Assembly: GCA_026075535.2 (NCBI GenBank)
Contig: AP026540.1
Location: forward strand, 1,674,001-1,738,000
Origin: Tricholoma matsutake
Lineage: Eukaryota > Basidiomycota > Agaricomycetes > Agaricales > Tricholomataceae
DNA length: 64,000 nt
Direction: 5' to 3'
Position 1 is the stretch's first letter; each line of letters begins with the position of its first letter. This document shows positions 8,959 to 63,432 of the stretch, piece after piece. The notes under the pieces are model-generated. The model was not told the DNA's origin. It saw nothing but the letters and a program-made list of their open reading frames with translations, and searched no databases. The translations under genes and the position numbers were made by a program.

Positions 8959-10231
8959 TGATGATGCTCAACCTGGGAAAACCACCAGAACTGCCAATGA
9001 GGCAATCGATGATGTTTGCGATGAGTCAGAGGAAGGTTGCGAGACGTTCCAAATGTTCATGGTCAAACCTATGAGAAGATTACTAGTTAACACTAGTTGT
9101 GAAGGTAGTGTTATGAGAGACGAAGGTGTTTGGCATGGTCTGATCGAGTATCAATCGATATTGAGGGCAGTCGACAAGATCAACAGTGAATGAGTTTATC
9201 GTCGATGGTCGATATGTGAATTCTGCAGACCTTTCGATAGGTTGATGGTATACGAAGGGTGCGGCAAACTGCTATGAAGTGTTGGAAGGGTTGCTAGAAC
9301 TAATGACGAGAGGATCGAGGGAGGATTGAGGATGCGACGATCACAGAGGTTTCTCGTCAATTGAGAAAACCCGCAGAGACTTAGATTGTTTTAGAAAGTT
9401 GATCAGATGCTTAGAACTGTATACAAGACGATATGTGAAGACGATTTCTTGTCATTTCCAAGTAGATACTACAGAGTTTTATATGTTTTAAAGAAACTTC
9501 CTAAAATGGAATGAGAAACATGTGTAGAACATGAGGCAAAAGATATGAGTTAAGGCACAAGGCCATAAAGGAGACTGGAATCCAAACAAGAAAGATATAT
9601 ATCATATGATGAAAGAGTAATAAAGGGAAAGAACTAAAAGTGACTGTCCTTTGTGTATAAACTGTGCTAAGTCTCGCAATAATGCATCCAGTGGGTTCTG
9701 TGCGCGATAGGGACTTGGAACGAGGCTGACCTATGATCAGCAGGTTTGAGCACGAGTTGGAATACGTCCTAGTGCATGGTCTTCCACCATTTAGATAATG
9801 AAGGTGGCGCCCAATGTCGCTCATAGTTTCTCAATATCGATCGATGATGGTCAACGATGGTCGACGACGGTCGATGATGCTTGATCGCAGTTGCAGCTTG
9901 TTCAAAGTTGGTCGGGGATGTTCGATGGTCATGTAGGGGAATCTTAGTGACTTTCAGGGTAGTCCTAAGGTTGTGCGATGTGGGCTCTTGATATGATCGA
10001 TGTCGCTGGTGATGTTTCAACGCGGTCAATATGATATCGTGATCAATAGAGTGGGTTGCGCTGCGTCTGGGATGTCGTAGGAGTTAGCTGATGTGATTAG
10101 AATGATGCTAAAGTGGTGAATCGGTCCTTGAGCCAAGGAGATGACCTATCAACATCGTAGGAGTTAGCCGATGTGATTAGAATGATGTTAAGGTGGTGAA
10201 TCGGTCCTTGAGCTGAGAAGACAACCTATCA
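8959..10231 (-). repeat. gypsy-A1 LTR copy 2 (outer), full length
   Basis: The + strand runs from TGATGATGCTCAACC to GACAACCTATCA, the same termini as the LTR at 55938-57131. It joins copy 1 without a gap, giving a head-to-tail LTR pair. The right end contains an extra 80-bp tandem repeat (10075-10231). Sequence to the right (CCAGAGTG…) is not LTR. Confidence 0.8.
10075..10231. repeat. 80-bp tandem duplication in LTR copy 2
   Basis: Two units, each starting TCGTAGGAGTTAGC and ending CCTATCA, at 10075-10154 and 10155-10231. They differ at only a few bases. The LTR at 55938-57131 has one unit. Confidence 0.85.
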
Positions 10232-44788: not shown

Positions 44789-45422
44789 CTAACAAGCTTG
44801 TTTTAGTGCTCGTGCGACTGTGAGCTGTTTCTGGTTTGGAACACAGCTGGCTCGCATGCGCGACATGTGCGTGAGTTGACATTTCTCCAGATGAAGAACA
44901 TCTCTGGCTGTTTTGGCATGTTGAGCTTTGCGTGCTTTGTTATGTAGCTTGTGAGCATTGTCATCAGCTCGCGTGCACTGCTTTTCAAGTTCTGTTTTCA
45001 ATAGAGCTGTTGGAGAGGTGCGAGGATCACAATTTTCGGTATTTGATGCATTTATCTTTTGTAGATTGCTTAAGCGTTGCACCCGCTGCAGTTGGGACTG
45101 CCAGCGGCCCATCTGCAGCGGGGCAAGTGTTGGATTGGGCAGGTAGGGTAGAAGTCGCGTCCACCTAAGCGAGTCAATCATATTGGATTTCCTAGCCCTG
45201 TGTGTGCAGAGCGCGAGCGGTATGTAGTTTTTGAACCCCCCCTTCAACTCCTTGATTACTGCATTCAGGAGTTTGCTCATAACATTGGTAATTGTCTGTG
45301 AAAAGTACTTCCTAGTTCACCCAGGCAGCTCACCAAGTGACAATGGTGCCACCCCATTCATACCAGAAATCACCCTTTGCGAAGGCTGAGCTGACCCCAC
45401 AATGCCCAATGCTGAAGCTATC
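44789..45422 (-). pseudogene. C-terminal part of an unknown ORF split by gypsy-B
   Basis: Joining 53001-52989 to 45417 across gypsy-B (one CTATC copy) keeps the reading frame: NPDLIAAIASALGIVGSAQP, then SGMNGVAPLSLGELPG, TGA at about 45302, TRKYFSQTITNV, and on to 44789. The last open stretch reads LLNAVIKELKGGFKNYIPLA, LCTHRARKSN, then a basic, Gln/Arg/Lys-rich helix-forming region ending ARALKQAC. The GGFKNYIPL…HRA segment vaguely recalls gag-like proteins of tyrosine-recombinase retroelements, but this is not a firm match. Confidence 0.5.
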
Positions 45423-46129
45423 TGTTAAGAACTGATCCTAGAGGCCACTTCGGAATCCGTCTGGACACTGCGGGTGATGATAGCGGGAGACTGTCAGGTC
45501 GATGCGTATTCTGCAGGAGGGGGAATGGAAAGGACTTGGCTTCAGCTTGTAAGAAGCTGCGCCCTTCACCTCGTCTGGTGTCCTAATTTCAAGTCGAGGG
45601 TTTAGAGGTAGGAGCGGGAAAGTGCAGGTAAACACGGGGAGGAGTATGGAGGGACTTAGGTTGAGTTCAGATGAGACTAGAACTTCAGAGGGAGACTAGA
45701 GGTTGAGTTGAATGTAGTTCAGACTCTTAGAGGACAGGGGTTGGAGTAGAAGGAGGTTTTAGATTGGCAGGGTAAAGTCGAGTCTATGTCGATATACAAA
45801 CTGAGGAATACAAGGTGAAACTAACTAAGCTTAAATACTGTAGTCCGGAATAATGCAGAACAGGAATGAAGACTGCGGCAGTGTCTTGACTGCATAGATA
45901 AATTACCTACGGGAGCCACACAGGAATCCATAGTTGAATTTGCAATAGAGATGGCAGCCTTGGAAAGGCAGCCATGGATGCTGTACAAGGCGGCCTGATG
46001 CACAGCAGTGTGGGCAGTGCAAGGCAGCCAGGAACAAAATCGGGAGGCATAGACAAAAGTCATGTTTGACGTGTGGGAAAAGAATCGGATGGATGCGGGT
46101 TCCGATCAGGCGAGGAATGGTTCTTGACA
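45423..46129 (-). repeat. 3' LTR of gypsy-B
   Basis: 707 bp, plus strand TGTTAAGAACTGATCC to GGTTCTTGACA. It differs from the 5' LTR mainly by C/T and G/A changes, many at CpG. Confidence 0.95.
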
Positions 46130-46130
46130 G

Positions 46131-46142
46131 TATTTCCCCCTT
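46131..46142 (-). promoter_or_regulatory. gypsy-B 3' polypurine tract
   Basis: AAGGGGGAAATA on the minus strand lies one base before the 3' LTR. The same 12-mer recurs inside pol at 48928-48939. Confidence 0.75.
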
Positions 46143-46265
46143 AGTGCCGAGCCTACAAGGCACATGAGGGTTTGAGTCCAAATGAGGAAGTTGGTTGAAT
46201 TTTCTGAATGCGGTAATTGGTTGAAAAAATTTCACATTCTTTCCTTCCCCCATCAACTATCAATT

Positions 46266-47254
46266 ATGTCCCCTCCAGCAGTATCTGTGCAGATCAAATT
46301 GGCCGCGATGAGGGCTCAACACAAACAGAGGGAGTGGGCAATGAAGGAGCAGATGGAACGGGAGATGAAGGAGCTGGAGGAAGCAGCAAGGAAGGAGGAA
46401 CGCTGGGCGCAGGAGGCGCAGAAGGCAGCAGAGGAGGCTGCAAAGGCTGAGGAGGCGCATCAGGCAGAGGTGCGGAAAAAGGAGGCATCAGCTGCAAAAC
46501 AAACAGAGAAGAAGCGGGCGGCTGTGGCTGCAGGTTTGGAGGATGATGCTGAGGGGAGCAAGTCCCCCAAGAAAAAGAAAGTTGCCAAGTTGAAGGCATG
46601 AGTGGGGTCAGAGGAGTCGGAGGGTCCAGTGCAGGTGCAGGCCATGTTGCCTTGCAAAAGGTACATACTTGTTTCCCTTTCCAGTCTCTTTTTACTGACA
46701 AGTGGCCTAGGTGCAAATATCAAAAGATTGCTTGTTTCAAGATGGGTGCAAAGGGATGCGTGTGCGACAACTGCACATGCGTCAAACATAAGTGCGAGGA
46801 GGTAGTGTGGGAGGGGCAGGAAGCCCCTGCAGCAAAACCGGCGGGAACGACGGGGGCAACTGGGGAAAACCCGGAAATAATGCAACAAATGATGAAGTTG
46901 ATAAGGAAGGGGTTCGCTGAGGTGGCCACTGCGGTGCGGGAGTCGATGGGGGAGATTTGGGACACTATGGACCCAGAGTGGGTGGAGGAAGAAAGTGCTG
47001 GGGAGGAGAGTGATGAGGGTGACAAAGAGGTGGAGCGGGCAGTGCGAGAGTCCCAGCGGGAAAGACGCGGGATCCGAAAGTCTGGAGATGACTGGGAGGC
47101 CTTCCAGAGATATCTGGAGAAAAGGAGAGCGGATGATGAGGAGGAGAGCGAGAGTGGAGATGAGGAGGGTGGAGAGAAGGATGAGGGTGGAGAAGAGGGC
47201 GAGGTTGGGGGAGAGGGTGACGAAGACAGAGAGGGAGAAGCGGAGGTAGTGTAG
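46266..47254 (+). CDS. opposite-strand coiled-coil / Cys-cluster / acidic protein of gypsy-B
   Basis: Starts ATG 46266, 136 bp inside the 3' LTR, and runs against pol. Exon 1 codes MSPPAVSVQIKLAAMRAQHK, a Glu/Lys/Ala-rich coiled coil to about residue 95, and a basic stretch SPKKKKVAKLKA. TGA (46599-46601, probably from CGA) interrupts it, then the same frame reads VGSEESEGPVQVQAMLPCKR. A short intron, GTACATAC (from about 46660) to an AG near 46700, leads to exon 2: WPRCKYQKIACFKMGAKGCV, CDNCTCVKHKCEEVVWEG, a 100-residue middle and a very acidic C-terminus (DDEEESESGDEEGGEKDEGG). The Cys pattern resembles a binuclear-zinc-like cluster but is not canonical. Stop TAG 47252-47254, about 90 bp from the convergent pol end. 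Structure and position match the gene at 57280-58660. Function unknown; DNA or RNA binding is an inference. Confidence 0.6.
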
Positions 47255-47341: not shown

Positions 47342-49618
47342 TTAAGTGGGTAATGGACCGGGTTTTTGCGGGTAGCAGGTGTGAAAATCCGCAAGGAGTT
47401 CTTGGGTGTGCTCAAGTTCCGTAACAGGTAGCCAGGAGGTCTCTTCATCGGTTCCCTGGTAACCTTCCCATCGGACAAGGTAGAGAATCTTGCAGCGACG
47501 TCGGTTGTCAACTTTGGAGTTGAGGACTTCAGCAATCTCATATTCGAGCTCGTCATCAATGGTGATTGGAGGAGGTGGAGGTTGCACTCAATTTGGAATT
47601 GTGTTTGGGGAGTGTTTCTCTAGTTGAGAGACATGGAAAACAGGGTGAATGGCCCGCATGTGATCCGGGAGCTGCAGGGTGACTGAGTGAGTGCCCAGGC
47701 GGGCAATGATTTCAAAGGGGCCATGGTGCTTTTCGGAAAGTTTCTTGGAAGGACGTGTGGTGTGGATATTTTCCACAGTGACATAGGCAGAGTCACCAAT
47801 GTTGAAGTCGGGTGCGGGTGCCCAATGTTTGTCTGCAGGACCTTGATAATGCTCTTGAGCGGCCGCAAGCTGTTTCCGAAGCTCCTGATGAAGGTCGTCT
47901 AAGTCAACGACGAACTCGCGGGCACGCTGTGAAGCTAAGTCGCGTTCTGGAAAAACGGAAATGTTCGGGTGATAGCCTTTGTTGGCAAAGAAAGGGGATA
48001 CGCCTGTAGAGGCGGAAGGAGCATTGTTGTAGGCAAATTTGCCCAAGGGTAAGAGGTGAGACCAGTCGTCCTGCTGATAGTTGCAGAAGATCCGGAGGTA
48101 CTACTCCAAGGTCTGATTAAGCTGTTCTGTCTGACCATCACCTTGTGGGTGATAACCAGAAGTGAAGTGGATCCGCATGTCGAGTGCTTTTCCGAGGGAG
48201 CGGAAGAAATGGGAGACAAACTCGGATCCCCGGTCGCAAGTGACGTGCAACGGAACGCCATGCTTGGAGAAGACGTGGAGGACAAACAGGTTGGCTAGTT
48301 CTTGGGCTGTGATTTCATTGACAGTTGGGATGAAGATGCCTTGCTTGGTGAGGCGGTCAACGATGACCAGGATAGTGGTGTGACTGTTGGAGTCGGGTAG
48401 TTGTTCAATGAAGTCCATGGAGATGGAGTTCCAAGGTTGTTCCGGAACTGGAAGTTGCTTTAGGAACCCGTAGGGCTTGTGTTGAGGCGATTTGGATTGT
48501 TTGCAAGTGGTACAGGATTTGCAGAATTCCTGCACAAAGGTGCGGAGGTTTGGCCAGACATATTCCCGGCAGACAAGCTGCTGGGTTTTGTTTTGTCTGA
48601 AGTGGCCAGAGAGGATGTGATCGTGTTTGTACTGAAGGACCTTGAGGCGAAGATCCGTGATGTCCAGAACATAAATCCGGTCGAAGTGGCGGAGAAGACC
48701 TGCCTCGTCTATGGTCCAGTTGGGGTCAACAGGTGTTGGAAGATGTGTGGATGATAAAGGGTCAAGGGGTAGGGAGGTGCGGATGTCGTGGTGAAGTTTC
48801 TCAATATCCATGATTACTGCCTGTCGAAGGACGGGTGTGGCAAAATAGGTGGTGTGGAGGGAAGAGGTGAGCTGTTCCTGTGTGAATACAGGTCAGAAGT
48901 TGGTTGGGTTTACGGAGGCGAAGTCGCTATTTCCCCCTTTGCGGTAGACGTCCCAACATCTAGTGAGTGCGTCTGGCTTGGCCCCTAGTTTCCTGGGGCG
49001 GAAGCGGATGACGAGATTGAACTGGGAAAGGTACTCAGACCAATGGGCCTGGCGGTGGGTGAGCAACTTGGTAGTGCTGAAGTACTCAAGATTTTTGTGG
49101 TCGGTGACCACATCAACCGGGTTTGCGGAACCCTCAAAATACTGCTGCCAGTGTTTGAAAGCTTCGAAAATGGCCAAGAGTTCCTTATCATGGGTGTCGT
49201 AATTTAGTTCAGTGGGATTGAAGGAGCGGGAATGAAAAGTGACTGGATGGATTTCTCCATCCGCAGTGTAAACCGAAAGGATAGCTGCTAGGGCATAGTC
49301 GGAAGCATCAGTTTCAAGTACCATCTGTGAGTCAGGTACCCATTGTGTTAAGATGGGGGCATGGGTGAATTCTTGTTTGAGCTTTTCAAAAGCGTCGCGG
49401 CACTTCTTGTTGAAGTCCCATGGTGCGGATTTCCACATCAAGCAGGTGAGTGGGATGACAATGTCTGAATAGCTGTTAATGAAGCAGCAGTAAAAGTTGC
49501 AAAAGCCTAAGAAGGATTGAATGTCCTTAACTTTCCTAGGCTCGGGCCAGTCAAGCACAGTTTTGACTTTATCGGATGTGGTCGAGGTATACAATGACAC
49601 AAACATCCAGCATGTCAC
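47342..49618 (-). pseudogene. pol: gypsy-B pol, RNase H-integrase-chromodomain part
   Basis: One frame with stops TGA 48895-48893 (NPTNF-stop-PVFTQEQL), TAG 48103-48101 (NQTLE-stop-YLR) and TGA 47590-47588. RNase H: LETDASDYALAAILS, THDKELLAIFEAFKHWQQYF, VTDHKNLEYF. Integrase: zinc finger with HDHILSGHF and CKSCTTC, then SMDFIEQLP, VTCDRGSEFVSHFF and YHPQGDGQTEQLNQ, with D, D and E intact. HGPFEIIARLGTHSVTLQLP and IHPVFHVSQLEKH follow, then the chromodomain YEIAEVLNSKVDNRRRCKIL, YLVRWEGYQGTDEETSWLP. This frame follows the RT frame after a deletion. The first stop again fits CGA (Arg) to TGA. Confidence 0.92.
48928..48939 (-). promoter_or_regulatory. internal copy of the gypsy-B polypurine tract
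   Basis: AAGGGGGAAATA on the minus strand, identical to the 3' tract, at the RNase H-integrase junction (coding KGGNS). A possible central plus-strand primer; see findings. Confidence 0.4.
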
Positions 49619-50860
49619 TGAAGATGTTGTTCATAAATTGCTGGAAAGCTGCAGGTGCATTAGTGAGCCCAAAGGGGACCACCAACCACTCGAAGGATCC
49701 GTAGTGGGTGCAGAAAGTAGTTTTCCACTCATCACCATCAGCGATGCGGACTAGGTGATAAGTGTGCTGCAAGTCTATTTTGGTGAACAAGCGGGCTTTG
49801 CGGGGAGAGTCAAGTAGGTTGGAAATGAGAGGAAGTGGGTAGCGGTCTTTCTTTGTAAGACGGTTAAGTCCTCGGTAGTCAACACAAAGTTGGAGACTAC
49901 CATCCTTCTTCTTGACAAAGAGAATAGAGGCGCCATGTGGCAACTTGGATGGGCGGATGAAACCTGAGCGGACATTTTTGTCAATAAAGACTCGTAAGGC
50001 TTCTAATTCAGAGGGGGAGAGAGAATACATTTGGCCTGGAGGCGGAGGAGTATTGTCTTCTGTCTCTATCTTGAGGTCATAAGACTGATGCGGAGGAAGG
50101 GTATCTGCTTTAGTCTTATTAAAGACATCAGCAAATTCGTGATACTCAGGCGGAATCTTGGAAAGGTCAGAAGAGTTAGCAGAATGGGCGGAGTGGGTGG
50201 ATAACCCTTCTGGAGCGAAGGTCATCTGAAAAGCTACTGCCCCAGGAAGTTTGCTAGCATGCGCATAAGCGGCAGCATTGATGAAGGAGATGTCAGGAGG
50301 TGTAAACTTAGGAGGAATGGGGGGTTTGGAAAATGCGGAAGAGTCGAGGATTTCTACCGGAAGATTCGGGGACAAAGGTGACATCAGGGGTGCTGGACCT
50401 CTATGATCTGCAGAGTGGAAAGCGAGTTGGCTTGAAGACCAGTCAATCAATGGATTGTATTGCTTCAGCCAGTTATGACCGAGTACGGTGGAACAGGAAG
50501 AGTCGAGCGAGGTTACATAAAATGACAAATTGAATACTTCACCGGCAGGGAAGGTGACTGGAAGTTTGACGATCTGAGTTATGGTGGAGTTGCAAGTTCC
50601 ATCAAAGAGTCGTAAACCGATCGGGTTAATGGATTCCGTGCTGAGTTGGTTATTCAACACGAAAGAGGAGTCAAGGAAGCAGTGGGAGGAGCCAGAGTCA
50701 ATAAGGGTTCGGAAAGGGGCAGAAGATTCGGAGAAGGTTAAAAGAATGGTTAAGGAGTCAGGGTCGGAAAGAGCGGATGCGTTGAGACGAACGTAGGCAG
50801 CCAAGTGGGTAAGGTCAACGCAACCCCCAGCCCCAATGGCTGTATCCTGAGGGTTGTGGA
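49569..50860 (-). pseudogene. pol: gypsy-B protease-RT, RT truncated at YLDD
   Basis: The frame is -1 relative to the gag end and opens upstream of 50804. Protease: FRTLIDSGSSHCFLDSSFVL, then STVLGHNWL. The linker contains [95 protein letters not shown] and then VIVYLDHIR at 49569, where YLDDI is expected. The roughly 50-60 residues that normally follow YLDD are absent; the next pol frame starts at the conserved SDKVKTVLDWPEPRKVKDIQ. This copy therefore cannot make active RT. Confidence 0.9.
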
Positions 50861-50870
50861 CTATTTTTCC
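50861..50870 (-). promoter_or_regulatory. possible -1 frameshift site at the gag stop
   Basis: GGAAAAATAG: the gag frame reads GAA AAA TAG while the pol frame reads GGA AAA ATA. Pol is in the -1 frame and open on both sides of this point. The heptamer is not a textbook X-XXY-YYZ, so the site is tentative. Confidence 0.35.
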
Positions 50871-52241
50871 GAGTCCATAGTCTCGGGAATGACAGTGGAT
50901 GCATGGGCTTTTGCAGCTTTGGATTTCGGGCAGTTTCCTGCTATGTGCCCTTCCTCACTGCAGTAGAGACAAAGTCGTTCTCTCATGCGATGTTCTTGTT
51001 CCTCCCCAGTAAGCTTGCCGTTCTTCCCCAACTTATCAGAGATGGATGACTTGGGCTTGTCCCGGGAAGTGTTCTTTGTCATGGAAGACTGCTGATTGGA
51101 GGTGTTACCATGGGCGGAGTTTGAAGATGCTTGGTTTGTCAATGGGGAAGGGCTTTTTGAAGAGTCCTCCCGACTAGAGTTAGTGATGTTACTGGAATTC
51201 TTTGTTTTGAAACAGGATTCGTCTTCTTGCATCATCGCTGTCCTGCGCTTTCAAGCGCAGTTCTGTGAGAGTATTGGGTTTACCACCCCAGAGAACTTCT
51301 ATGCGAAGCTGGAGCAGAAGACCACAGAAATAGTGGTCGCGAAGGGCTGCTTCATTCCAGTTGACCCTAGAAGCTAATTCCCAGAAGTCAATGTTATATT
51401 TCGTGATACGACCACCTTTCTTCATTGCTAAATCAGAGAGAGCTTTTTCCGCATCTCCAACCAGGTCATGCGGACCAAAGTTGCTTTCCAGTTCAGCGAG
51501 GAAAGCTTCATAGTTCCACATCCAGTGTGCGGAATCTGTTGGGTCATTCAGACCAGGCTCAAACCAACTGAGAGCTGATCCCTTAAGATAAGAAAGGATG
51601 AATATGATCTTTTTCTCATCAGAGGAAAATATGTGTGGACGGTCGCAGAAATGAAGATTGCAGGAGACTAAGAAGTCTCTAAGTTTCTTCGGATTGGCAC
51701 CGTCGAAAGTGTCGGGGTCGCAAACTTTGATTTTTTCAGTCTTGGGTGTGTTATTCTGGCGAAGGGTGCGGATACTCTCTGAGAGGTTGTAAAGGACATC
51801 TATGAACCTCTCCCCTGGGTCAGGGTTTTCCCCCGTGGGAGGTTGATCCTCAGGATCATTGGGATCAGGGTCACCCCCAGGGCCGTCAGGACCACTAGGG
51901 TCGTCGGGTCCACCAGGGGGTCCATCCTCTAGACCAGGATCTTCCAACCCGAAGGGTTCAGGCTGGTTGATGCCTCCTACGTACTCAAGGGGAGTTCTTG
52001 ATCGAAAACCTTCTGGGTTGCTGGAAGGTTGCGGGGCACGGGTGGACATGAGGTTGGCACTGATTGAGGGAGCTCCTGAGCCAATTTGTCGAAAGATGTT
52101 TGAGGGTCTGGAAGACACTCCAAAAGTAGTGGCGGGTCGAGGGTCAGAAAGGGTGGATTGCTGGATTGCAGAGATCCCTGGAATAGTACTGGCGCATTGG
52201 GAGTTTCTTGTTGTGCGCTGGCGGGTCTCAGTAGGGGTCAT
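50861..52241 (-). pseudogene. gag: gypsy-B gag with one frameshift
   Basis: ATG 52241 lies only 40 bases inside the 5' LTR. The N-terminus is Ser/Thr-rich, followed by a Gly/Pro/Asp-rich stretch, then the capsid-like region KVCDPDTFDGANPKKLRDFL, SYLKGSALSWFEPGL, ELESNFGPHDLVGDAEKALS, LRLKAQDSDDA. Here (about 51224) a one-base shift moves the frame to QEDESCFKTKNSSN and on to a zinc knuckle CLYCSEEGHIAGNCP (C-X2-C-X4-H-X4-C), ending at TAG 50863-50861. Confidence 0.9.
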
Positions 52242-52279: not shown

Positions 52280-52281
52280 AC

Positions 52282-52988
52282 TGTTAAGAACTGATCCTAG
52301 AGGCCGCTTTGGAATCCGTCCGGACACTGCGGGTGATGATAGCGGGAGACTGTTGGGTTGATGCAGATTCTGCGGGAGGGGGAATGGAAAGGACTTGGCT
52401 TCAGCTTGTAAGAAGCTGTGCCCTTCACCTCGTCTGGTGTCCTAATTTCAAGTTGAGGGTTTAGAGGTAGGAGCAGGAAAGTGCAGGTAAACACGGGGAG
52501 GAGTATGGAGGGACTTAGGTTGAGTTCAGATGAGACTAGAACTTCAGAGGGAGACTAGAGGTTGAGTTGAATGTAGTTCAGACTCTTAGAGGACAGGGGT
52601 TGGAGTAGAAGGAGGTTTTAGATAGGCAGGGTAAAGTCGAGTCTATGTTGATATATGAACTGAGGAATACAAGGTGAAACTAACTAAGCTTAAATACTGT
52701 AGTCCGGAATAATGCAGAACAGGAATGAAGACTGCGGCAGTGTCTTGACTGCATAGATAAATTACCTACGGGAGCCACACAGGAATCCATAGTTGAATTT
52801 GCAATAGAGATGGCAGCCTTGGAAAGGCAGCCATGGATGCTGTACAAGGCAGCCTGATGCACAGCAGCGTGGGCAGTGCAAGGCAGCCAGGAACAAAATC
52901 GGGAGGCGTAGACAAAAGTCATGTTCAACATGCGGGAAAAGAGTCGGATGGATGCGGGTTCCGATCAGGTGAGGAACAGTTCTTGACA
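52282..52988 (-). repeat. 5' LTR of gypsy-B
   Basis: 707 bp, same termini as the 3' LTR, followed by CTATC on the outer side. Confidence 0.95.
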
Positions 52989-54583
52989 CTATCGCTGCGA
53001 TAAGATCCGGGTTCAGTGCAAGTTGGGGTGGTGCTGATGCCTGTGAACATGGATCTGTAGTAGAGAGATCAGCCTTTGCATCCCAGTCGGGCATAAATAC
53101 ATTGTGGGCACCATGATGGTATAACTGTGCTGTTGCGAGAGAGCCACCCTGGGCACGTGATGATGCAGGGATAGGAGGGTCGAGAGCAGAAGCGCCCACC
53201 TCTACGTGTTGTGCTACTATATGTGAACTATGCAATGCTGAATTATGCGTGCGAAAATATGCTTGCGTAGGTATGTGCGATTGCGGGTCAACGTGCAGGT
53301 TTTGCAATCCTGACTATATGCATGTCAAGTGCAGTAAATACGGAGTCAAATGCATTATGAACAAGATGCAACTGAGCATGTGCTTGCATGGCCATCTGCG
53401 GGCCCGCCTGAGTGCGGAATGGTGCATTAATAAGTGGTGAATGATGCTGCTTGAAAGGGCTATTGGGAGGACTATGCGGTCTTTGCTGTGGTGCATAAAG
53501 AAAAGTGCCTGGAGGCTCGCACGCAGCGCTTATATGCTCATTAAAAAGCTTCCTACCAGCACTCAGTTTTGCCATGCCTAAACGCCGAGATTCAGGCAAA
53601 TGGACTTTGTACATTATCCCACCAACCACCTAGGCTGAGACGAAGCCTGGGGCATGAAAATCATCTGCTACTGGAACCAAGCCCTCTGCAGCCAACTACG
53701 CCTTGTTGGCATCCTGTGTGTAAAAGGTATCTGAACGCTTTCTCGCTGGAGATGGCATATGAACATTGATAGTGCTAGAGTGCTGGAGGAGAGGATCATG
53801 AGAAATTGGACTAGAGCTGTGTGGTGTGTTTTGGTCAATTGGCATAGGTGAGGTAGGATCATGAGCTCCATCCAGAATGGCCGCCTTGAGATCAAGTGGC
53901 CTTTGTGATGGCCCACCCTGCGAGTGTCCTTGCCAAGCATCAAGCAAACCATCACTCCCGGGCTCCACAAAATGGGTAGGTGAGAAATCCACTGCGGATG
54001 CCAGGTGCAAAGGGTTGTGGACCCGCTCCAGAGTGCCAGGCGCCTCACTAGTTGCTGATTGCTTGCGTCCCTTTATAGCTGCCATGCCGACCGTCGAACC
54101 CGCCCAAGGTGAGCTGATGTCCCAAGAGCCACCAACATTCTCAGATGAGCCTGTTGATCTGCCCAACTGCCCAGGAATCTTGCTGGCCTCCTCAGCCACA
54201 GGTTGTAGGACCTGGTACTGGTAGCCTATGGAAGGTTTCATGCCGGGGGGTGCCTTGATGAGTAATGGCACCTCCATGGGCTCCTGAACATATTTGGACC
54301 TTGCCAGTGCGACACACAATGATTGACAAACATCCGTCAAAAATTGGGCTGCCCCAGCCGGGACCTTAACCCGCTGGCCTGACCTCTTTGTAGCACCTTT
54401 CTCCACCTCAGCAGCTGCCAACTCGAGAGCATCAGAGAGGGGTTCAGACCCGTGACCGCTCTCAGAACTATTTGCCATTGTCCCTGACTGCGAGAACTGA
54501 GCCATTGCCCCTGCTCCTTGTCCTTCTATGCTAGCTGACATGATTTGAGAACAAAAGAAATGGTGTTGCAATCGATGCAACAA
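52989..54583 (-). pseudogene. N-terminal part of an unknown ORF split by gypsy-B
   Basis: The minus-strand frame from about 54583 (ATG 54541, SASIEGQGAGAMAQFSQSGT) reads KRSGQRVKVPAGAAQFLTDV, CQSLCVALARSKYV, EVPLLIKAPPGMKPSIGYQY and a long Ser/Pro/His-rich region. It has TAG 53698-53696 (NKA-stop-LAAEGLVP) and another TAG near 53637. It then continues LPESRRLGMAKLSAGRKLFN and AMQAHAQLHLVHNAFDSVF to 53288. A frameshift near 53300 leads to QNLHVDPQSHIPTQAYFRTH and the run into gypsy-B at 52993. It lies downstream of, and on the same strand as, the tyrosine recombinase. Not recognised; a structural protein of a mobile element is possible. Confidence 0.5.
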
Positions 54584-54996: not shown

Positions 54997-55937
54997 TCAA
55001 GCCTTGGGGAGGCTTCTCATCTGCGGATGCTGTGGTTGCAAACTGATAGGGAGCATCTCGATGTGCATGGCACCTAGATAGTCCAGACAACGCCAATATT
55101 CCAAAAAGGCCTGCGAACGCCAATGGCCAAACTTCTTAACCATATCTGGTGGCACTCCTGCAACGAGGTAGAAGGTTGTTCCTCCAATATGAAAGCAGTG
55201 CCCTGTGATGTGGGGGTATCCCTTGTTCATCGCATGAAGACTTCTATTGACTTGCCAAATAAATGTGGACCTAGTGAGCGTGATTACTTTATCGTGCGAG
55301 GATGATTAATGTCAAGCCTGTTCTTGATAAAATGCTTGTGAATTGCGTGAATAGGATCCAGCAGGGCCTCTTGGCAAGGGATCCAAATGTCGTCGCCTCG
55401 AGCCTTCTGTGCTTTTGACCAAGGGAGGTGAAGGCCGCAGGCGCCATTCTCTGCAGTAGATTGTGCGATGCTAGAAAAGGTGGCATGGCACAGTGGATCA
55501 AATTTCTGGAGGTCCTGAGTTGGTGGTAGGAGCTCCCCGCTGCGAATCTGGGAGAAAAATGAGAGGAAACATATGGCTCGGATACAAATGTCCAGTCCAG
55601 AAGATCTGCTGAGGCCCCGGTTAAGATCCCGAAGGATGGAAATAGTGATGGCCGGCCTCTTGCCACAGTATGAAGATGTGGGCCTGAGCTCCTCCACACC
55701 CTTTAAGACCCGACGCAGTTGCTCTCCACCCTGCCACACCAGTCCTTGCTTCTCATGCTCCTTCTTTATAGCTGATATCTTCGCACCGACCATCTTTCCT
55801 GCAAAACACCTGGCATAGGATGACACCCACACTATGAGAAGGTCCTCCCTAGCTGGAAAAACATCATCATCGTGGATGTTGAGGGCCTTGCAGAAACATA
55901 GGAATTCACATAACCTGCTCGCATCTTTGGATTGTGT
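54997..55937 (-). pseudogene. tyrosine recombinase (DNA breaking-rejoining enzyme), N-terminus lost
   Basis: The minus strand from the gypsy-A2 edge reads STQSKDASRLCEFLCFCKAL (core-binding part), SSYARCFAGKMVGAKISAIK, HEKQGLVWQGGEQLRR, then the catalytic domain: SQIRSGELLPPTQ (first catalytic Arg), HLPWSKAQKARGDDIWIPCQ, DPIHAIHKHFIKNRLD. After TAA (55286-55284) and a frameshift comes GYPHITGHCFHIGGTTFYLV, VPPDMVKKFGHWRSQAFLEY with the likely nucleophile Tyr. The box usually read HCFRIGG has His for the second catalytic Arg. Such proteins belong to Crypton- or DIRS-like elements of Agaricomycetes; no RT was found nearby, so the class is open. Inactive: stop, frameshift, lost Arg and loss of the N-terminus to gypsy-A2. 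Confidence 0.8.
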
Positions 55938-57131
55938 TGATGACACGCAACCCAGGAAAACCACCAAAACAGCCGATGAGGCAATCAATGATATTTGCGA
56001 TGAGTCAGAGGAAGGGAGCGAGACGTTCTGAATGTTCGTAGTCAAACCTATGGGAAGATAACTAGTGGGTACTAGTTGCAAAGGTAGTGCTATAGGGGAC
56101 AAAGGTATTTGATGAGGTCTGATGGGGTATCGATTGATATCAAGGACGATTGATGAGATCAACGGCAAACGAGTTCTATTGCTGATGGTCAAAGTGTGAG
56201 TTACGAGGACCTTTTGATAGGTCGAAAGTATACGAAGGCTATAACTGATGGCTAGGACATATTGGAAGGGTTGCTAGTGCTAACAATCAGAGGATCGTAG
56301 GAAGATCGACGATGACAATGGTCGCAGAGTTTTCTCATCGATCGAGAAAACTTGTAGAAGTTTAGATTGTTTTAGAGGATAGATCTGATCCTTAGAACTT
56401 AATACGAGACAACAGGTGAAGACAATTTCTTGTATTTTCCAGTAGATACTACAGAGTTTTATATGTTTTAAAGAAACTTCCTAAAATGGAATGAGAAACA
56501 TGTGTAGAACATGAGGCAAAAGATATGAGTTAAGGCACAAGGCCAAAAAGGAGACTGGAATCCAAAGAAGAAAGAGATGTATCATATGATGAAGGAGTAA
56601 TAAAGGGAAAGAACTAAAAAGAGACTGTCCTTTGTGTATAAACCATGCTAAGTCTCACAATAATCTGTCCAGCGGGTTCTGTACGTGATAGGGACTTGGA
56701 ACGAGGCTGACCTATGATCAGCAGGTTTGGGCACGAGTTAGAATCCTTCCTGGCACATGGTATTCCACCATATAGATAACAAATGCGGTGCCCGATGTCA
56801 CTCGTAGTCTCTCGATATCGATCGATGATGCTCAACAATGGTCGACAATGGTCGACAATGTTCGATCGCAGTTGCGGCTGTTCGAATGTGATCAGGGATG
56901 TTCGATGGTCATTTAGGTGGATCTTAGGGGCTTTTGGGGTAGTCCTAAGGTTGTGCAATGTGGGCTCTTGGTATGATCGATGTCGCTGGTGATGTTTTGA
57001 CGCGGTCGATATGATATCATGATTGATAGACTGGGTCGCGCTGCATCTGGGACATCGTAGGAGTTAGCCGATGTGATTAGAATGTGTTTAGAATGACGTA
57101 TCAGCCTTTGAGCCGAGGAGACAACCTATCA
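55938..57131 (-). repeat. 3' LTR of gypsy-A2
   Basis: 1194 bp, plus strand TGATGACACGCAACCC to GACAACCTATCA; TG/CA-type termini on both strands. Matches the LTR copies at 5706 and 8959. Confidence 0.85.
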
Positions 57132-57146
57132 TCCTCCCCCTTACTG
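57132..57146 (-). promoter_or_regulatory. gypsy-A2 3' polypurine tract
   Basis: CAGTAAGGGGGAGGA on the minus strand directly precedes the 3' LTR. A 21-base block spanning it (57130-57150) is repeated exactly at 60390-60410 in pol. Confidence 0.8.
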
Positions 57147-57279
57147 AAATTCTGACCATCCCGGTCAGTTGAGCCGAAGTAACCAGGTCATGTGACATTG
57201 TTGATCATTGATTTAAGATGCGTCATGGTTCGAACTTCTCTCTTTCTATTCAATCTCTTTCATCAATCTCCTCGACAAC

Positions 57280-58660
57280 ATGTCCATCCTTGCCGAACTT
57301 GCCCTTCCTATTCTCGATCACACGAAATCAATGCCTGAGGCTGGCAAAGCCGAAGACCTCGACTTCAAGGTATGGGGTCGAGTTTTTTGTGAGAAAATGG
57401 TGTGTGTTTCATTTTTCTTTGCTTATCTGCTTCTTGACATTGTTGATAGGCTGAATATGATGACCTGATTGGGTCATTCAATGAGGCATGCGACGAATGT
57501 GTGCAGGCGACGTTGGATGAGGTGATTGGTCTATTTGCACCATTTGCTCGGGAGGATTGGGTTCCGTGGGGTGGCAGATATCTTTTTGAGGAGTACTTGA
57601 GGAAAGTCGAGGGGGAGAGGCAGAGAGAGGAGGAGAGGGTGGCTCGGCAGGTGGCCATCGAGGCCAAAGCGAAGAGGATTGAGGAACGACGAGACGCACT
57701 GGTTGAGGTGCATCAAGCATTCTTGGCCGAAGTCTGGGCCAAGACAGTTTTGAAGGATGAGTTCCATGATCGAACAGCTGCGCTCGAGGTGATGCACCTC
57801 TCGATTGATCAAGACAAGGCTGAAGAAGAAGAGGAACCTTTGGTCGATGACCAGAAGGTCATCGAGCAAATCGTCGAGAAGAGGAAGGTGGACAAGATGG
57901 ACGAGGAGGAGGAAGGTGAGGACGAGCTGGATGAGGAGCCCATGGTCGCAAAATGGGTGCGATTGGAGGAGGGTGACCTGATCACCTTCCATGGGCCGGT
58001 AAGTAGTCTTTTTCTTTTGGTCTCATTCAGACTAATCAGGCTTTCGATATTGCTTTAGTGTGATCGATGCATAGGACTAAGGACGTCTCAGGAGTGTATC
58101 ATCGAGGAGGGCACCCCAAAGTGCAAGTGATGCACTCAAGGGCTTCAGGGGTGTTACTGGGAGGGAGTGTCAAGGCGAGGACTTCATCGAGGCAAATCGA
58201 GGAAAAAGGTGGGCTCCAAGTGAGCAACACAGAGTACTGTGGAGTCAACAGAGGTGTTGACTCCAAGACGTAGTAAGTGATCCTTCTTGCTGATGAGTAC
58301 AATTGCTAATCTGTATGATTACTTAGCAGTATGCATCCGGGCTATCCAGCCCATCCAAAACACAGAGGCCCCTTGAAAGTCGACGAGCACCTGAAACAAA
58401 TGATGAAGGCAAAGACAAAGTCAGCTGAGAAGGACAAGGGTAAGGGGAAGGGGAAAGCAAGAGCACGAGAAGTAGAACCTGAGGTCACGGGTATGGTCGA
58501 GGGGGCGTTGATGGCGGTGGAGGATGAGATGATGCAGTCGGACACAGCAAGACTCCATCATTGGTATTTGGCAGAAGTACTGGTGCAAAAAAAGCTGGAG
58601 GTGGAAGTTTTAATGGAGGAAATTGAGGTGTTGGAGAGGAAGTGGGAGGAATCCCAATAG
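57280..58660 (+). pseudogene. opposite-strand coiled-coil / Cys-cluster protein gene of gypsy-A2
   Basis: ATG 57280 is 148 bp inside the 3' LTR. Exon 1 57280-57369 (SILAELALPILDHTKSMPEA). Intron GTATGG to TAG 57370-57449. Exon 2 57450-57998: AEYDDLIGSFNEACDECVQA, FAREDWVPWGGRYLFEEYLR, a Glu/Arg-rich coiled coil, an acidic zone (KMDEEEEGEDELDEEP) and VAKWVRLEEGDLITFHGP. Intron GTAAGT to TAG 57999-58058 with an ACTAAT branch-like site. Exon 3 from 58059: CDRCIGLRTSQEC, GTPKC, K-stop-CTQGLQGCYWEG, giving C-X2-C-X8-C-X8-C-X2-C-X6-C, close to a Zn2Cys6 cluster, then a basic tail. TGA 58128-58130 replaces an Arg codon. A further intron near 58268-58326 precedes the last frame (58331-58660), which is basic and ends in a second coiled coil (LAEVLVQKKLEVEVLMEEIE). 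Intact splicing signals but two TGA make it a young pseudogene. Function unknown. Confidence 0.65.
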
Positions 58661-59048
58661 AATTTTGTTGTATTGTTTTAATTTTATTGTTTTTCTTGTG
58701 TCTGAGCGAGATAAGTTTGAAATGAGAAATATCGCATGCGATTGAAGCCAGGAAATGTAAGATATATGCGAAAAAACATAGGAGAGAAAAAGAAAAAGAA
58801 AGTAAGACGGACGATTCATCAAAATGGGACATAGGGGAAAGGCTCAGAACTCCTTCATAGCTGAAAAACCCTGTCGAACTTGCGCGAACACATTTTGAAC
58901 GATATCGCGACTTGTAATAGTACACTGTTATAGGATCAAGAGTTTGTTTTAATATCGCAAGTAAGAAAAAGAAAAGGAAAATGCTCTATTCATCTTTGTC
59001 GAGGTCAGGAATGCCTTCGTCGATGTCTCCGTCGACGTCTGATGTTGT
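58661..59048. other. spacer between the convergent genes of gypsy-A2
   Basis: AT-rich, holding the 3' ends of both the opposite-strand gene and pol. No frame with support. Confidence 0.5.
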
Positions 59049-60929
59049 TCAAAGTTGTTCGAGCTGACAATCATCGATATCAAAGAAGTTCAGAGGAAGG
59101 GGAATCGATTTCCATGCTAGATAGGGTAGAACTCGGAAAGCAGCTACTGGTCGATGCAGAACTGAATCGTCGAGCTCGCAAAGAATATAAGCACCACCAT
59201 AGTTTTGTGCAATGACAATGAGTGGGCCAAGATATCGAGCTCGCATTTTTCGATTAAGAGCTTTCTCGATCTGTGTGTTTCACATGAGTACGAGGTCACC
59301 TTTTTCGAAATTGTAGTCTTGAATTGTTTGCTTGTGAACTTCTTTGAAGCATTTCACAGCTTCTCGTTGAGCGGTGTAGACTCTAGAGTAGAGTACTTCA
59401 AGATTGGTCAAGTGTTTCTGTAGTGCGGGCAATGAGATCAGTGGAGGAGAGTATCAAATTGGGTGGCAGTTGTAGGTATGTTGCTTCTGAGATGTCGAGA
59501 GGGATGAGTGGATGAGAACCTGTGATCACAAAATAGGGCGAACATCCCATTTGTTTTCGAACTGTTACCCATTCTGCCCAAAAGACCGAGTAGGTCCCAA
59601 CCGACCATCAAGTTTGATCGCCATCGATGGCCTTGTAGAGTGATTGTCATACATCGAAGTGTGCTCGTTTGACAAGGCTGTTGGCACGAGAATTGTACCC
59701 ACTTATCTGAATGTGATTGATATGATACCGCTTCGCCCAGTATTCGAGAGCAGCAAGAATTGCTGGGCTGTTGTCAGTAATGATCTCATAAAGTGAGCCC
59801 CAACGACAAATGATTTCTTCGAAGATCCAATCGCTGATGGTCCTCGCTGTTTCATTGCGAAGCATCCTGAACTCCAGCCAGTACAATATCGAACATCGAC
59901 CTTGTACTATATATCGATATCCACCAGGAGGGGGCATGTGCATTGTGTTGATGTAGACTTTTCCAAATAGAGGAGTGGGTGTCGCAATGATTGGTGGGAT
60001 AAGAAGATTTCGAGTTTGTCGCAACTGACAGTAGTGGCACATTCAGATGTACCATGCGATATCGGCTTTCAGGTTGGGCCACCAGAATTGTAGGGCGACG
60101 TGAGACTTCGTGGCAAAGATCATCTTGTGGCCGATATGGTCGTGCGATGACCAGATAATGTCGATGCGATGTTCTGGAATCGTGATGATCTTATGTTCTC
60201 CGTGATGATCTTTTTGCCATAGTTTTCCAGAATCTATGAAGAACTCGGTGCAATATCGCATGAAGGTAGCGTACTCGGTGTCTGATAGATTTGGGGGTCG
60301 CACCATATCGTCTAACCATCTATGAACGAGCAGTAATTGTTTGTCTTCTTTCTTTGCTTTGTCTGATTGAGGTATGTCTTGGTACACAACATCCTCCCCC
60401 TTACTGAAATCTGAAGCTTGAGTGAAAGTCGGATATGTCGCATGAGGGGGGAAAGGTTGAATCAAAACTGGGTTGATTTGGTGAATGAAACCATGTAATT
60501 TGTTGATCCAGTTGCCGAATTCTTCTTCTACTTCGACATCGTCATCTTTGGTCTGTCGAGGACGTCGCGAAAGACCGTCCGGCCCATGGTGCATACCTGC
60601 GACATGAACTAGCGTGAAGTTGAATGTTAGAATGGAAACTATCCATCGGTTGATGTAGCACTAGGCACGATATCGGGATTTGAGAGCATGCCTTTGATAT
60701 ACCTCACATCGACCTCAACGATAAGGTTTCGTACCCCTATCAAATATAAACAAAGTGCCCCAAGGGCTCGATATAGACCATAAAGTTCGAGTTTTGGTTG
60801 CGAGAACCGGGATTCGTGGTTGTTGAGTGTGATCGAGCCGAATCGACTGTAGTATTGTTTTTGAGGGTTATCGTGGTCGCATTGTGTTAGGAAATAGCTA
60901 GTGTTTAAAGGTCCAGTCTGTAGGACCAA
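59049..60929 (-). pseudogene. pol: gypsy-A2 RNase H C-terminus and integrase
   Basis: The RNase H part (60929 down) reads YFLTQCDHDNPQKQYYSRFG, SRFSQPKLELYGLYRALGAL, NLIVEVDVRYIKGMLSNPDI. After a stop and frame change come DGLSRRPRQT and a linker. Integrase zinc finger: SHDHIGHKMIFATKSHVALQ, WPNLKADIAWYI-stop-MCHYCQLRQT. Integrase core: GKVYINTMHMPPPGGYRYIV, EIITDNSPAILAALEYWAKR, YNSRANSLVKRAHFDV. Catalytic positions are hit: Asn in INTMHMP where Asp is expected and Lys in LVKR where Glu is expected, both G to A changes on the coding strand. The C-terminal end (59246-59049) is RARYLGPLIVIAQNYGGAYI, FRVLPYLAWKSIPLPLNFFD; there is no chromodomain. Between 59647 and 59246 the frame is damaged. 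Confidence 0.9.
60390..60410 (-). promoter_or_regulatory. exact internal copy of the gypsy-A2 polypurine tract
   Basis: The 21 bases starting CATCCTCCCCC (plus strand) are identical to 57130-57150. They lie between RNase H and integrase and code DFSKGED. Confidence 0.5.
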
Positions 60930-61726
60930 AAAAAAGACCGAAACTGAACTGAACTGGACTGATTAGGACCGGACCAGTGGTCTATTTATGGACCAGTCTT
61001 TTTCAGTCCAGTTGCTGGTCTTTCGTTTTGAAAAATATAGTAGGACCGATGAAAAACCGGTTGCGACCGGTCTTTCATCCCAACGTATGTTAGACCTTAC
61101 TCCCACACATATTTACTTCATTTTTGATCCCTGGATCATCAAAAATGGTCAAGAATTGGTTGAGATATGACCAAAAACTTTTTTGTATGAGTATTTTGTT
61201 GTATCAGAACAACTTTGATTGCATTGCTTATTACCTGAGCTATAATTTTTTTTGTACAGCTATATAACATCATAAAAGTAACAACAACACACCTAATCAT
61301 CTGTACCATGGGATTTTATTTATATAACAGCCCAAATGAGTGCAACCACAAACTACAAATTACAAACTACAAACTGCAACTTGAATGCATGTCTTTTCGG
61401 TTTTGGCCATATCTCAGTCAAATCTTGACGGAGTTGCTTAAATGTTGGATCGGTCTATGGAGCATTACAATCTCTATCCATGAATATAATATATATGAGG
61501 TGATGGTCATATTTGTTGAGATACATATGGGTTATTTGGCACAATAAATTTTACAACAAAAAACCGGTCCAAACCAGTCTTTTTTTGGTCCATGGACTGA
61601 TTAGGACCGGTCCTAAAGGGTCCAGTTGCGGTCCTCCAATATCTGGGTCGGTCCTAGACCGGTTGCGGTTGCCGGTTGCCCCATTTGGAAGTCAAAAACC
61701 AGACTGGACTGGACCTTTTAACACTA
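60899..61726. mobile_element. 828-bp hAT-type non-autonomous element
   Basis: Ends TAGTGTTTAAAGGTCCAGTC and the inverted TAGTGTTAAAAGGTCCAGTC; perfect 8-bp duplicates GAAATAGC (60891-60898, 61727-61734). Subterminal zones are dense in GGACCGG/CCGGTCC words. No transposase. Confidence 0.92.
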
Positions 61727-61734
61727 GAAATAGC

Positions 61735-62127: not shown

Positions 62128-63432
62128 TAGTGTTTGAAAGTCCGGTTGCATGGACCGAAAAAAAACTGGCAACCGAACCAGACCCAACCGCGGTCCGGTC
62201 TGTCTTGCAGGTTCTGCCGCAGCAGTTGTGGACCGGTCCAGTTGCTGGTTGCATAGTTTTTTCAAATAATTATGGACCAGGTAAAGACCGGTTTCCAACC
62301 GGTCTTTGATCATAATTTGATGTGTTGCTAAGGCAAGTGATCAATTGATTACATGTGATACAAGTAATCTGTGTGCTGGCACTGACTAAATAAGTTATTG
62401 TAGGATTGTAATGCCTTAACAGCTATGTCCATAAACCAGGATTCCACACTGTATAGAGTATATCTACATCCACCCAAATGCACTAGTTCAATGGTGCAGT
62501 GGTTCATTCATGGTAAACACCCTTCCTCCTCATTCCTCTGAAAACTCCGTAGCACTGTAATTCAATAATGGCTTAACCGATCCTTTCGTAAACTTGGATT
62601 AAGTACAATATATATTATATATATATGCTCCCAAAAGCACTAGTCAAACGATGCAACCATTCATCTATGGTAAGCAACCCTTCCTCCTTATTCCTCTCAA
62701 AACTCCGTCGGACTATAATTCAATAATGACTGAATGCATCCTTTCGTAAAGCTGGATTAGACACTATATATAGCATATATATATGCTCCCCAAAGCACTA
62801 GTTGAACTGTACAGTCATTCATTTATGGTAAGCAACCCTTCCTCCTCATTCCTCTGAAGACTCCGTAGCACTGTAACTCAATAAAGGCTCAACCGATCCT
62901 TTCGTAAACTTGGATTAAATACAATATATTATATATATATGTGCTCCCTAAAGCACTAGTCAAACGGTACAACCATTCATCTATGGTAAGCAACCCTTCC
63001 TCCTCATTCCTCTGAGAACTCTGTAGAACTGTAATTCAATAATGGTTCAATGTATCCTTTTGTTAAACTTGGATTAGACACTACATATATGATATAGATA
63101 CACCCCCTGAGGCACTAGCCACATGGTCTAGCCATTCATTTATGGTTTTGTCTGTAGTGTTTACTTATATTACTACTACTAGTTTTCAACTTCGAGACAT
63201 GTATATTAGTGTACAAATAGTCGGTCCTGACCGGTTGTGAACTGGTCAGGACCAGTCTAAGTATGGACCAGTTTTAAACTGGTTTGGCAACCGTGAGGCA
63301 ACCGAGTAGGACCGGTTTACACCAGTCTGGTCCTCAGTTGCCTTGATGTTGAGCATGTAAGCAACCAGTCTGGTCCACGGTTGCCCCTGTTGTCGTCAAA
63401 AAAACCGGACCGGACTGGACTTTTAAACACTA
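62128..63432. mobile_element. 1305-bp hAT-type non-autonomous element with internal tandem array
   Basis: Ends TAGTGTTTGAAAGTCC and the inverted TAGTGTTTAAAAGTCC; perfect 8-bp duplicates ACCACAAT (62120-62127, 63433-63440). GGACCGG/CCGGTC words crowd both ends, as in the 60899 element. The centre is a tandem array (62463-63140). No coding capacity. Confidence 0.92.
62463..63140 (+). repeat. about 160-bp tandem repeat, four to five units
   Basis: Units recur at about 62479, 62637, 62797, 62952 and 63113 (marker GCACTAG followed by CATTCATTTATGGTAAGCAA-type sequence). Each holds CCCTTCCTCCTCATTCCTCT, TCCTTTCGTAAACTTGGATT and an AT-rich ATATATAT block. Confidence 0.85.

Follow-up and report, generated by a model that had tools for sequence, protein, structure and literature searches.

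Opposite-strand, apparently spliced six-cysteine genes in two gypsy families of Tricholoma matsutake

What is the gene that runs against pol in two different gypsy elements of the mushroom Tricholoma matsutake, and what could it do for them? The window analysed here is a stretch of 64,000 nucleotides from chromosome 3 (C3:1674001-1738000), and the assembly searched comprises 161,040,721 bases in 13 contigs. Two elements of the window, gypsy-B and gypsy-A2, carry an accessory gene (gene B and gene A, respectively) on the plus strand, between a minus-strand pol and the 3' long terminal repeat (LTR). The sequence supports the gene structure, its linkage to the element, a splicing signature, purifying selection and the occurrence in more than one element family, and on these features we consider it nearly certain that this is a real spliced gene of the element. 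An earlier note on this DNA had already described both genes as element-linked and apparently spliced; conserved GT..AG introns, intron lengths modulo 3 and purifying selection now point the same way. The reading developed below is that the product would be a nuclear protein acting in trans as a regulator of the element.

Structure and placement of the two genes

Alignment of genomic copies gave the following gene parts, with the evidence in brackets (dN/dS, the ratio of nonsynonymous to synonymous substitution).

46266..46660, plus strand: gene B exon 1, with coiled coil, a stretch like a nuclear localization signal (NLS), KSPKKKKVAK, and the first cysteine of the cluster; one in-frame TGA in the window copy (30-locus alignment)
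46661..46710, plus strand: gene B intron, 50 nt, GTACAT..TACTGAC..TAG (GT 29/29, AG 29/29, branch-like CTRAY 29/29)
46711..47254, plus strand: gene B exon 2, with the remaining cysteine cluster, a KHKC-EE-VVWEGQE block, DPEW and an acidic tail (dN/dS, 28 copies)
57280..57399, plus strand: gene A exon 1 (dN/dS 0.17, 25 copies)
57400..57449, plus strand: gene A intron 1, lengths 50-54 (GT 24/25, AG 25/25, CTRAY 17/25)
57450..57998, plus strand: gene A exon 2, with a long coiled coil and an acidic stretch (dN/dS; predicted helix 35-96 with high pLDDT, the predicted local distance difference test)
57999..58058, plus strand: gene A intron 2 (GT 25/25, AG 25/25, CTRAY 25/25)
58059..58272, plus strand: gene A exon 3, with C-X2-C-X8-C-X8-C-X2-C-X6-C-YWEG; two in-frame TGA in the window copy (dN/dS)
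58273..58326, plus strand: gene A intron 3 (GT 25/25, AG 24/25, CTRAY 18/25)
58327..58660, plus strand: gene A exon 4, with a basic region and a C-terminal coil ending EESQ; frame of the window copy disturbed near the start (dN/dS)

The single intron at the cysteine cluster of gene B, previously held probable, is thus placed at 46661-46710, with splice sites conserved in 29 of 29 copies. Two introns had been proposed for gene A; the aligned copies show three (57400-57449, 57999-58058 and 58273-58326), and a donor-like GTATGG near 57371 is not conserved across them. The cysteine spacing first given for gene A (C-X2-C-X8-C-X8-C-X2-C-X6-C) stands, but that count had run across an in-frame stop in the window copy. 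The spliced product of gene A is about 400 aa long.

The window copy of gene B, with its one in-frame TGA, is not intact; that of gene A is interrupted by two stops in exon 3, of which one falls within the cysteine cluster, and its reading frame is disturbed near the beginning of exon 4. Gene B is open in six of 30 loci (312 aa without a stop), and gene A lacks a stop in the spliced frame in two of 30, one of these with an altered first donor. The loci were taken as the 30 top-scoring protein matches of each search and so do not sample the copies at random: exon 1 of gene B as query found at least 151 matches in the assembly (646 candidates, the best 150 scored) and exon 2 of gene A at least 152 (691 candidates, the best 150 scored).

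The elements that surround the genes are made up as follows.

45422..46133, minus strand: gypsy-B 3' LTR (96% identity to 52281-52992)
52281..52992, minus strand: gypsy-B 5' LTR (paired with 45422-46133)
47342..50954, minus strand: gypsy-B pol, with protease, reverse transcriptase, integrase and a chromodomain-like end, the last labelled from sequence and position without a Pfam match of its own (open reading frames, ORFs; Pfam RVT_1, RVP_2, Integrase_H2C2, rve)
55936..57131, minus strand: gypsy-A2 3' LTR (82.7% identity to 8957-10151)
58986..60660, minus strand: gypsy-A2 pol, integrase end, degenerate and convergent with gene A (ORFs; Integrase_H2C2 in 60043-60660)

The LTRs measure 712 bp in gypsy-B and about 1.2 kb in gypsy-A, and the 5' end of gypsy-A2 falls beyond the window. 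The ATG of gene A (57280) lies 148 bp inside the LTR end at 57131, as first stated, and that of gene B (46266), put at 136 bp before, lies 132-136 bp inside the LTR end at 46133, according to the exact LTR edge. An opposite-strand gene next to the 3' LTR and facing pol, as described in the earlier note, was seen in both families and repeated over many loci. A 3' LTR match stood directly upstream of gene B in all 30 loci and a chromodomain on the opposite strand downstream of it in 26 of 30; for gene A an abutting LTR match was found in 24 of 30 loci and was missing in six. In four 9.4-kb stretches (L061 and L062 for B, L063 and L064 for A) LTR matches flank both sides and integrase matches oppose the gene.

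The two elements had been called distinct, and their pols bear this out. The family B and family A pols are only 20% identical (397 residues, E 7e-9), and therefore gypsy-A and gypsy-B are, to judge from these proteins, distant Ty3/gypsy lineages. The pol of a second A element gave no match to the family B pol; two B pols compared with each other were 88-90% identical.

Splicing and selection among the copies

Intron counts refer to 29 of the 30 B loci (L026 left out) and 25 of the 30 A loci (L033, L043, L049, L052 and L055 left out). The same five A loci were left out of the gene A values for dN/dS and diversity, and L019 and L026 were left out of those for gene B. Introns were kept in all 29 alignable B copies and all 25 retained A copies, as is expected if only pol-sense RNA gets copied. 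Insertions and deletions (indels) of up to 30 nt, counted with the window copy as reference, were rarer per base in exons than in introns, about 19-fold in gene A (32 in 164 nt of introns versus nine in 883 nt of exons 1-3) and about 5-fold in gene B (four in the 50 nt of the intron versus twelve in 785 nt made up of exon 1 and 390 nt at the start of exon 2). Nearly all intron indels (35 of 36) were not multiples of three. Across copies the intron lengths fall into all three classes modulo 3 and the exons hold one frame, as splicing predicts. In-frame read-through of the introns was rejected on the ground of these intron lengths.

Calculation of dN/dS, which the earlier note had named as a check, pointed to purifying selection on both genes (0.31-0.34 in B, 0.17-0.28 in A). 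Values were pooled over pairwise comparisons in the spliced frame, for 28 of the 30 B copies and 25 of the 30 A copies, and came to 0.31 for exon 1 (the query exon) and 0.34 for exon 2 of gene B, and to 0.17, 0.19, 0.25 and 0.28 for exons 1 to 4 of gene A, of which exon 2 was the query exon; exon 4 was read in the frame of the other copies, the window copy being shifted near the start of this exon. Exon 2 of gene B and exons 1, 3 and 4 of gene A lie outside the queries, so that they are free of bias from picking loci by query-exon similarity. In each of the six exons, the non-query exons included, dN/dS was lowest in the spliced frame, other forward frames giving 0.65-2.70 and reverse frames 0.29-3.06. 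As a yardstick, the pol end gave 0.25 in its chromodomain part and 0.37 at the integrase end (family B only; 25 of 30 B copies, L004, L012, L015, L019 and L026 left out), and purifying selection on the accessory genes thus appears about as strong as on the pol end.

Three of four tests showed amino-acid changes to be depleted among variants shared by at least three copies relative to single-copy variants: in exon 2 of gene B (shared 63:58 versus single 228:76, p 9e-6), in exons 1 and 3 of gene A together (60:65 versus 39:16, p 0.006) and in exon 2 of gene A (106:121 versus 68:36, p 0.002). Fisher's test was used with sites taken as independent and with two-copy variants left out. Our reading is that the genes would have been under constraint during element activity, the copies then decaying in a near-neutral manner after insertion. 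The stops are TGA at CpG-type sites in 49 of 55 cases in gene A (exons 1-3) and in 20 of 27 in gene B (exon 1 and most of exon 2). Arginine codons vary widely among the copies (L001-L060). Together, these stops and the arginine codon variation bear the mark of C-to-T decay, whether by methylation or by a process like repeat-induced point mutation (RIP).

Relatives, common origin and known systems

A protein-database search with gene B returned one relative, P0001 (218 aa; 46% identity, with 47% of the query covered), from one 970-base contig, and a four-row B-type alignment found the same single relative among 7988 scored. For gene A, no homologue was found among 2461 candidates, and no relatives turned up in viral contigs searched with the B-type and A exon 2 alignments. 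P0001 in turn had at least 232 matches in the assembly (1217 candidates, the best 150 scored), the best at 61% identity over 170 residues. As none of the matches listed exceeded 72% identity, P0001 probably comes from another species.

Two further loci, L065 and L066, represent a family B2 with the antisense gene in the same place as in B. Their pol end is 72-74% identical to that of B, and the sequence upstream of the gene matches LTR B over about 80 bases only. The B2 loci and P0001 carry gene B at 41-55% identity, and KHKCEEVVWEGQE and all six cysteines are common to B, B2 and P0001. By eye, the intron of L066 has the position and phase seen in B and contains an in-frame stop, and that of L065 has an altered acceptor; P0001 is open across the intron site, so that it would derive from a spliced message or else from an intronless copy. 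The short block of B/B2 similarity (46116-46196 with L066 1267-1346, 46115-46192 with L065 1649-1726; 81-86% identity) consists of the LTR edge, the polypurine tract and about 60 bases at the start of the leader; elsewhere LTR B is almost without match. The block is a shared cis element, one that perhaps combines priming site and antisense promoter.

The cluster spacing in the B-type proteins is C-X2-C-X6-C-X9-C-X2-C-X6-C. That of Zn(2)-Cys(6) binuclear cluster proteins (PF00172) is C-X2-C-X6-C-X5-12-C-X2-C-X6-8-C, which fits B, B2 and P0001 but not A, where the first loop is X8; in A and B the cluster is central in the protein and follows the coiled coil. A sequence search of PDB gave nothing meaningful; its best hits for the B-type cluster, aligned over about 20 residues with E values of 0.07 or more, were zinc knuckles of retroviral nucleocapsids.

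Comparison of A and B profiles, with 15 of the 30 A proteins on one side and 23 of the 30 B proteins plus P0001 on the other, aligned the six cysteines and the WEG that follows them, with a probability of 1.8% and an E value of 0.027. The earlier suggestion of an old shared cassette finds support for B, through the B2 loci and P0001, but is not established as common ancestry of A and B. That both genes descend from one ancient antisense, intron-bearing Cys6 regulator, which predated the divergence of the pols to 20% identity or was swapped as a cassette, is in our view doubtful. If true, the ancestral regulator would be a fungal counterpart of HBZ, the antisense protein discussed below, and the introns would serve as a strand lock, the protein arising only from a nuclear-spliced antisense message and the pol-sense RNA transmitting the whole gene. 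Beyond other chromodomains, 12 places of about 2.4 kb each (from 150 listed among 5153 candidates) contained no match to gene A or B. Ten of these 12 stretches (L067-L078) are alike at length and share a long 3' region of another kind, and the negative result therefore shows only that the gene is not universal.

Antisense ORFs had been noted beforehand as known from some plant gypsy lineages, and the precedent is real. Such ORFs between pol and the 3' LTR (aORF-3R) are described for maize Grande (gene23), rice RIRE2, Silene Retand and PvRetro13, GENE23 of Grande being a nuclear protein with its own promoter (PMC7264820). Those of Retand carry TRP28 (PMC11963269), and the word 'intron' does not occur in the available text of that paper. 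Genes A and B resemble aORF-3R in place, orientation, many copies and pol-like conservation (with family B as yardstick), and the own promoter and nuclear protein of Grande may have their counterparts in a conserved leader (partly so in A) and NLS-like stretches. They differ in their fungal host, in having no TRP28 or SMC domain, in their one or three conserved introns and in the Cys6 cluster. Among fungi, brtn of the Boty-like elements of Botrytis cinerea is an additional antisense gene of an LTR element (PMC7264820, PMC8365987); its host is an ascomycete, and we liken it to genes A and B by description only. The gypsy element described from T. matsutake itself, marY1, is 6047 bp long with 426-bp LTRs (PMC10211490), so that with LTRs of 712 bp and about 1.2 kb the elements studied here are not marY1. 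No description of an intron-bearing Cys6 antisense gene in basidiomycete elements was found in the open-access literature searched, in part with a focus on fungi, basidiomycetes or matsutake and with most subscription papers lying outside its scope, and the word 'antisense' does not occur in the main texts of the matsutake and bakamatsutake genome papers. Antisense accessory genes are thus known from plants and one other fungus, and the intron-bearing Cys6 form looks new.

By analogy only, genes A and B, being antisense and, by their signature, spliced, may also be set beside HBZ of human T-cell leukaemia virus type 1 (HTLV-1), which is made from a spliced message. HBZ is located in the nucleus (PMC11963269). 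It is a bZIP protein of an animal retrovirus, whereas genes A and B show no bZIP match in Pfam and have, besides a coiled coil, a Cys6 cluster. According to PMC7264820, the function of antisense accessory genes in LTR elements is not settled. With many copies, introns whose evolution reports splicing, a Cys6 motif and selection gauged against the pol end, genes A and B would make that function testable in mushrooms, and they show a route by which introns can survive within a retroelement.

Proposed role, rival readings and neighbouring sequence

The leaders between LTR and ATG are the candidate control regions.

46134..46265, plus strand: leader from 3' LTR B to the ATG, with the polypurine tract for the pol strand and candidate gene B promoter (low diversity)
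57132..57279, plus strand: leader from 3' LTR A to the ATG, with the polypurine tract for the pol strand and candidate gene A promoter (diversity)

Leader B is among the least variable parts of B, with a diversity of 0.053-0.076; the LTR end has 0.12, the intron 0.118 and the stretch between the genes 0.178. Leader A shows 0.119, 0.138 and 0.173 in successive parts as against 0.166-0.173 in the introns. Pyrimidine-rich runs lie just upstream of both ATGs, and similar runs are found in core promoters of filamentous fungi. We infer a promoter, a nuclear location, zinc binding and a regulatory role, and hold the first of these, an antisense promoter of the gene's own, to be highly probable.

In the mechanism that we propose, the leader beside (or inside) the 3' LTR would serve as polypurine tract on one strand and probably as promoter on the other, and the antisense gene would be transcribed separately from it and its message spliced. 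The product would combine a zinc-cluster-like motif of six cysteines with a long coiled coil and with basic NLS-like and acidic stretches; AlphaFold2 predicted confident long helices in exon 2 of gene A (residues about 55-120) and in P0001 (residues 1-48). Most likely it would re-enter the nucleus as a dimer and there tune LTR transcription or integration by acting in trans on the DNA or chromatin of the element, a role that HBZ plays for HTLV-1 and that has been proposed for GENE23 of Grande. Since it is the non-genomic strand that bears the introns, the pol-sense RNA would hold them in reverse without loss by splicing, and every new copy would regain the full gene. A nuclear protein that binds nucleic acid or chromatin seems to us the better bet, control of element transcription as its main job a possibility that falls somewhat short of even odds, and the whole chain, taken loosely as a nuclear trans-acting regulator of the element, has a probability of about 0.5.

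Several observations weigh against this regulator. Splicing is a prediction from the sequence signature, and the contig of P0001 may stem from an intronless copy and not from RNA. Stops occur in most of the copies examined. Multiples of three are not favoured among exon indels (13 of the 21 have other lengths), as would be expected if most arose after insertion, and in exon 1 of gene B the difference between shared and single variants was not significant (41:36 versus 32:16, p 0.19). On the protein side, a Pfam scan of both whole proteins found no family above the cut-off (no TRP28, SMC or bZIP). Zn_clus (PF00172) reached 10.0 and 13.1 bits on two B-type fragments, below its cut-off of 21, and gave no match to a gene A fragment. 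Structure prediction of the cysteine cluster, which had been suggested at the outset, was run and left the cluster without a confident model, only the long helices being confident. Nor, as said, is a common origin of A and B established.

The cysteine cluster, basic stretches and coiled coil would equally fit a replication or particle factor, such as a nucleic-acid chaperone or a carrier of the preintegration complex into the nucleus, a role discussed for the plant antisense ORFs (PMC7264820); a separately transcribed, spliced antisense gene is an improbable source of a stoichiometric particle component, however, and we consider this role unlikely. Suppression of host silencing of the element, by methylation or RNA, appears somewhat less likely again: the heavy decay of C-to-T type suggests that the element is exposed to DNA methylation or to a RIP-like process, and a nuclear, cysteine-rich coiled-coil protein could serve to counter it, but the Pfam scans gave no similarity to known suppressors and nothing positive speaks for it.

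A recently captured host gene, or host genes hit by LTR insertions, would account for introns typical of host genes, which antisense capture would preserve; it is very improbable in view of the selection seen among many diverged copies, the sharing of gene B with family B2 and with P0001 from elsewhere, and the LTR adjoining all 30 B loci, as against 24 of 30 A loci. Slightly less room still is left for a function in the antisense RNA (as double-stranded RNA or by transcriptional interference) instead of the protein, a reading that we disfavour. Non-coding antisense transcripts do occur in other retroelements (PMC7264820), but dN/dS lies well below 1 in one intron-joined frame, the other forward frames giving 0.65-2.70. 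That the coding strand is that of pol, with an env-like gene of which the antisense frame is the shadow, can practically be dismissed. In its favour, some pol-strand frames have dN/dS of 0.29-0.49, owing to mirrored codon positions, but they are higher in dN/dS and richer in stops than the antisense frame (32 versus 0 in A exon 1, 69 versus 22 in A exon 2, 37 versus 16 in B exon 1), and conserved GT..AG introns occur on the antisense strand only.

Some neighbouring sequences of gypsy-A2 may be recorded besides. Two GGTCCAGT-rich, inverted-repeat-like insertions (60899-61730 and about 62130-63430) apparently break its pol, as seen by eye; part of the first matches L065 1-533 at 77%, which suggests a repeated non-autonomous element. 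Minus-strand ORFs at 54997-56273 adjoin or overlap its 3' LTR. A stretch within them has what we take to be a resemblance to a tyrosine recombinase, and the ORF 55284-56273 had no Pfam match at E 0.1. In gypsy-A elements, a second, identical 21-bp polypurine tract lies some 3.2 kb into pol, immediately upstream of the zinc-binding domain of the integrase. The pairs are 57130-57150 and 60390-60410 in the window, 4985 and 8223 in L063, and 1112 and 4345 in L064. The internal tract shows no mismatch in the three elements examined, which are themselves 15-20% apart, and no such second copy would be expected in shuffled sequence. It resembles the central polypurine tract of lentiviruses and Ty1.
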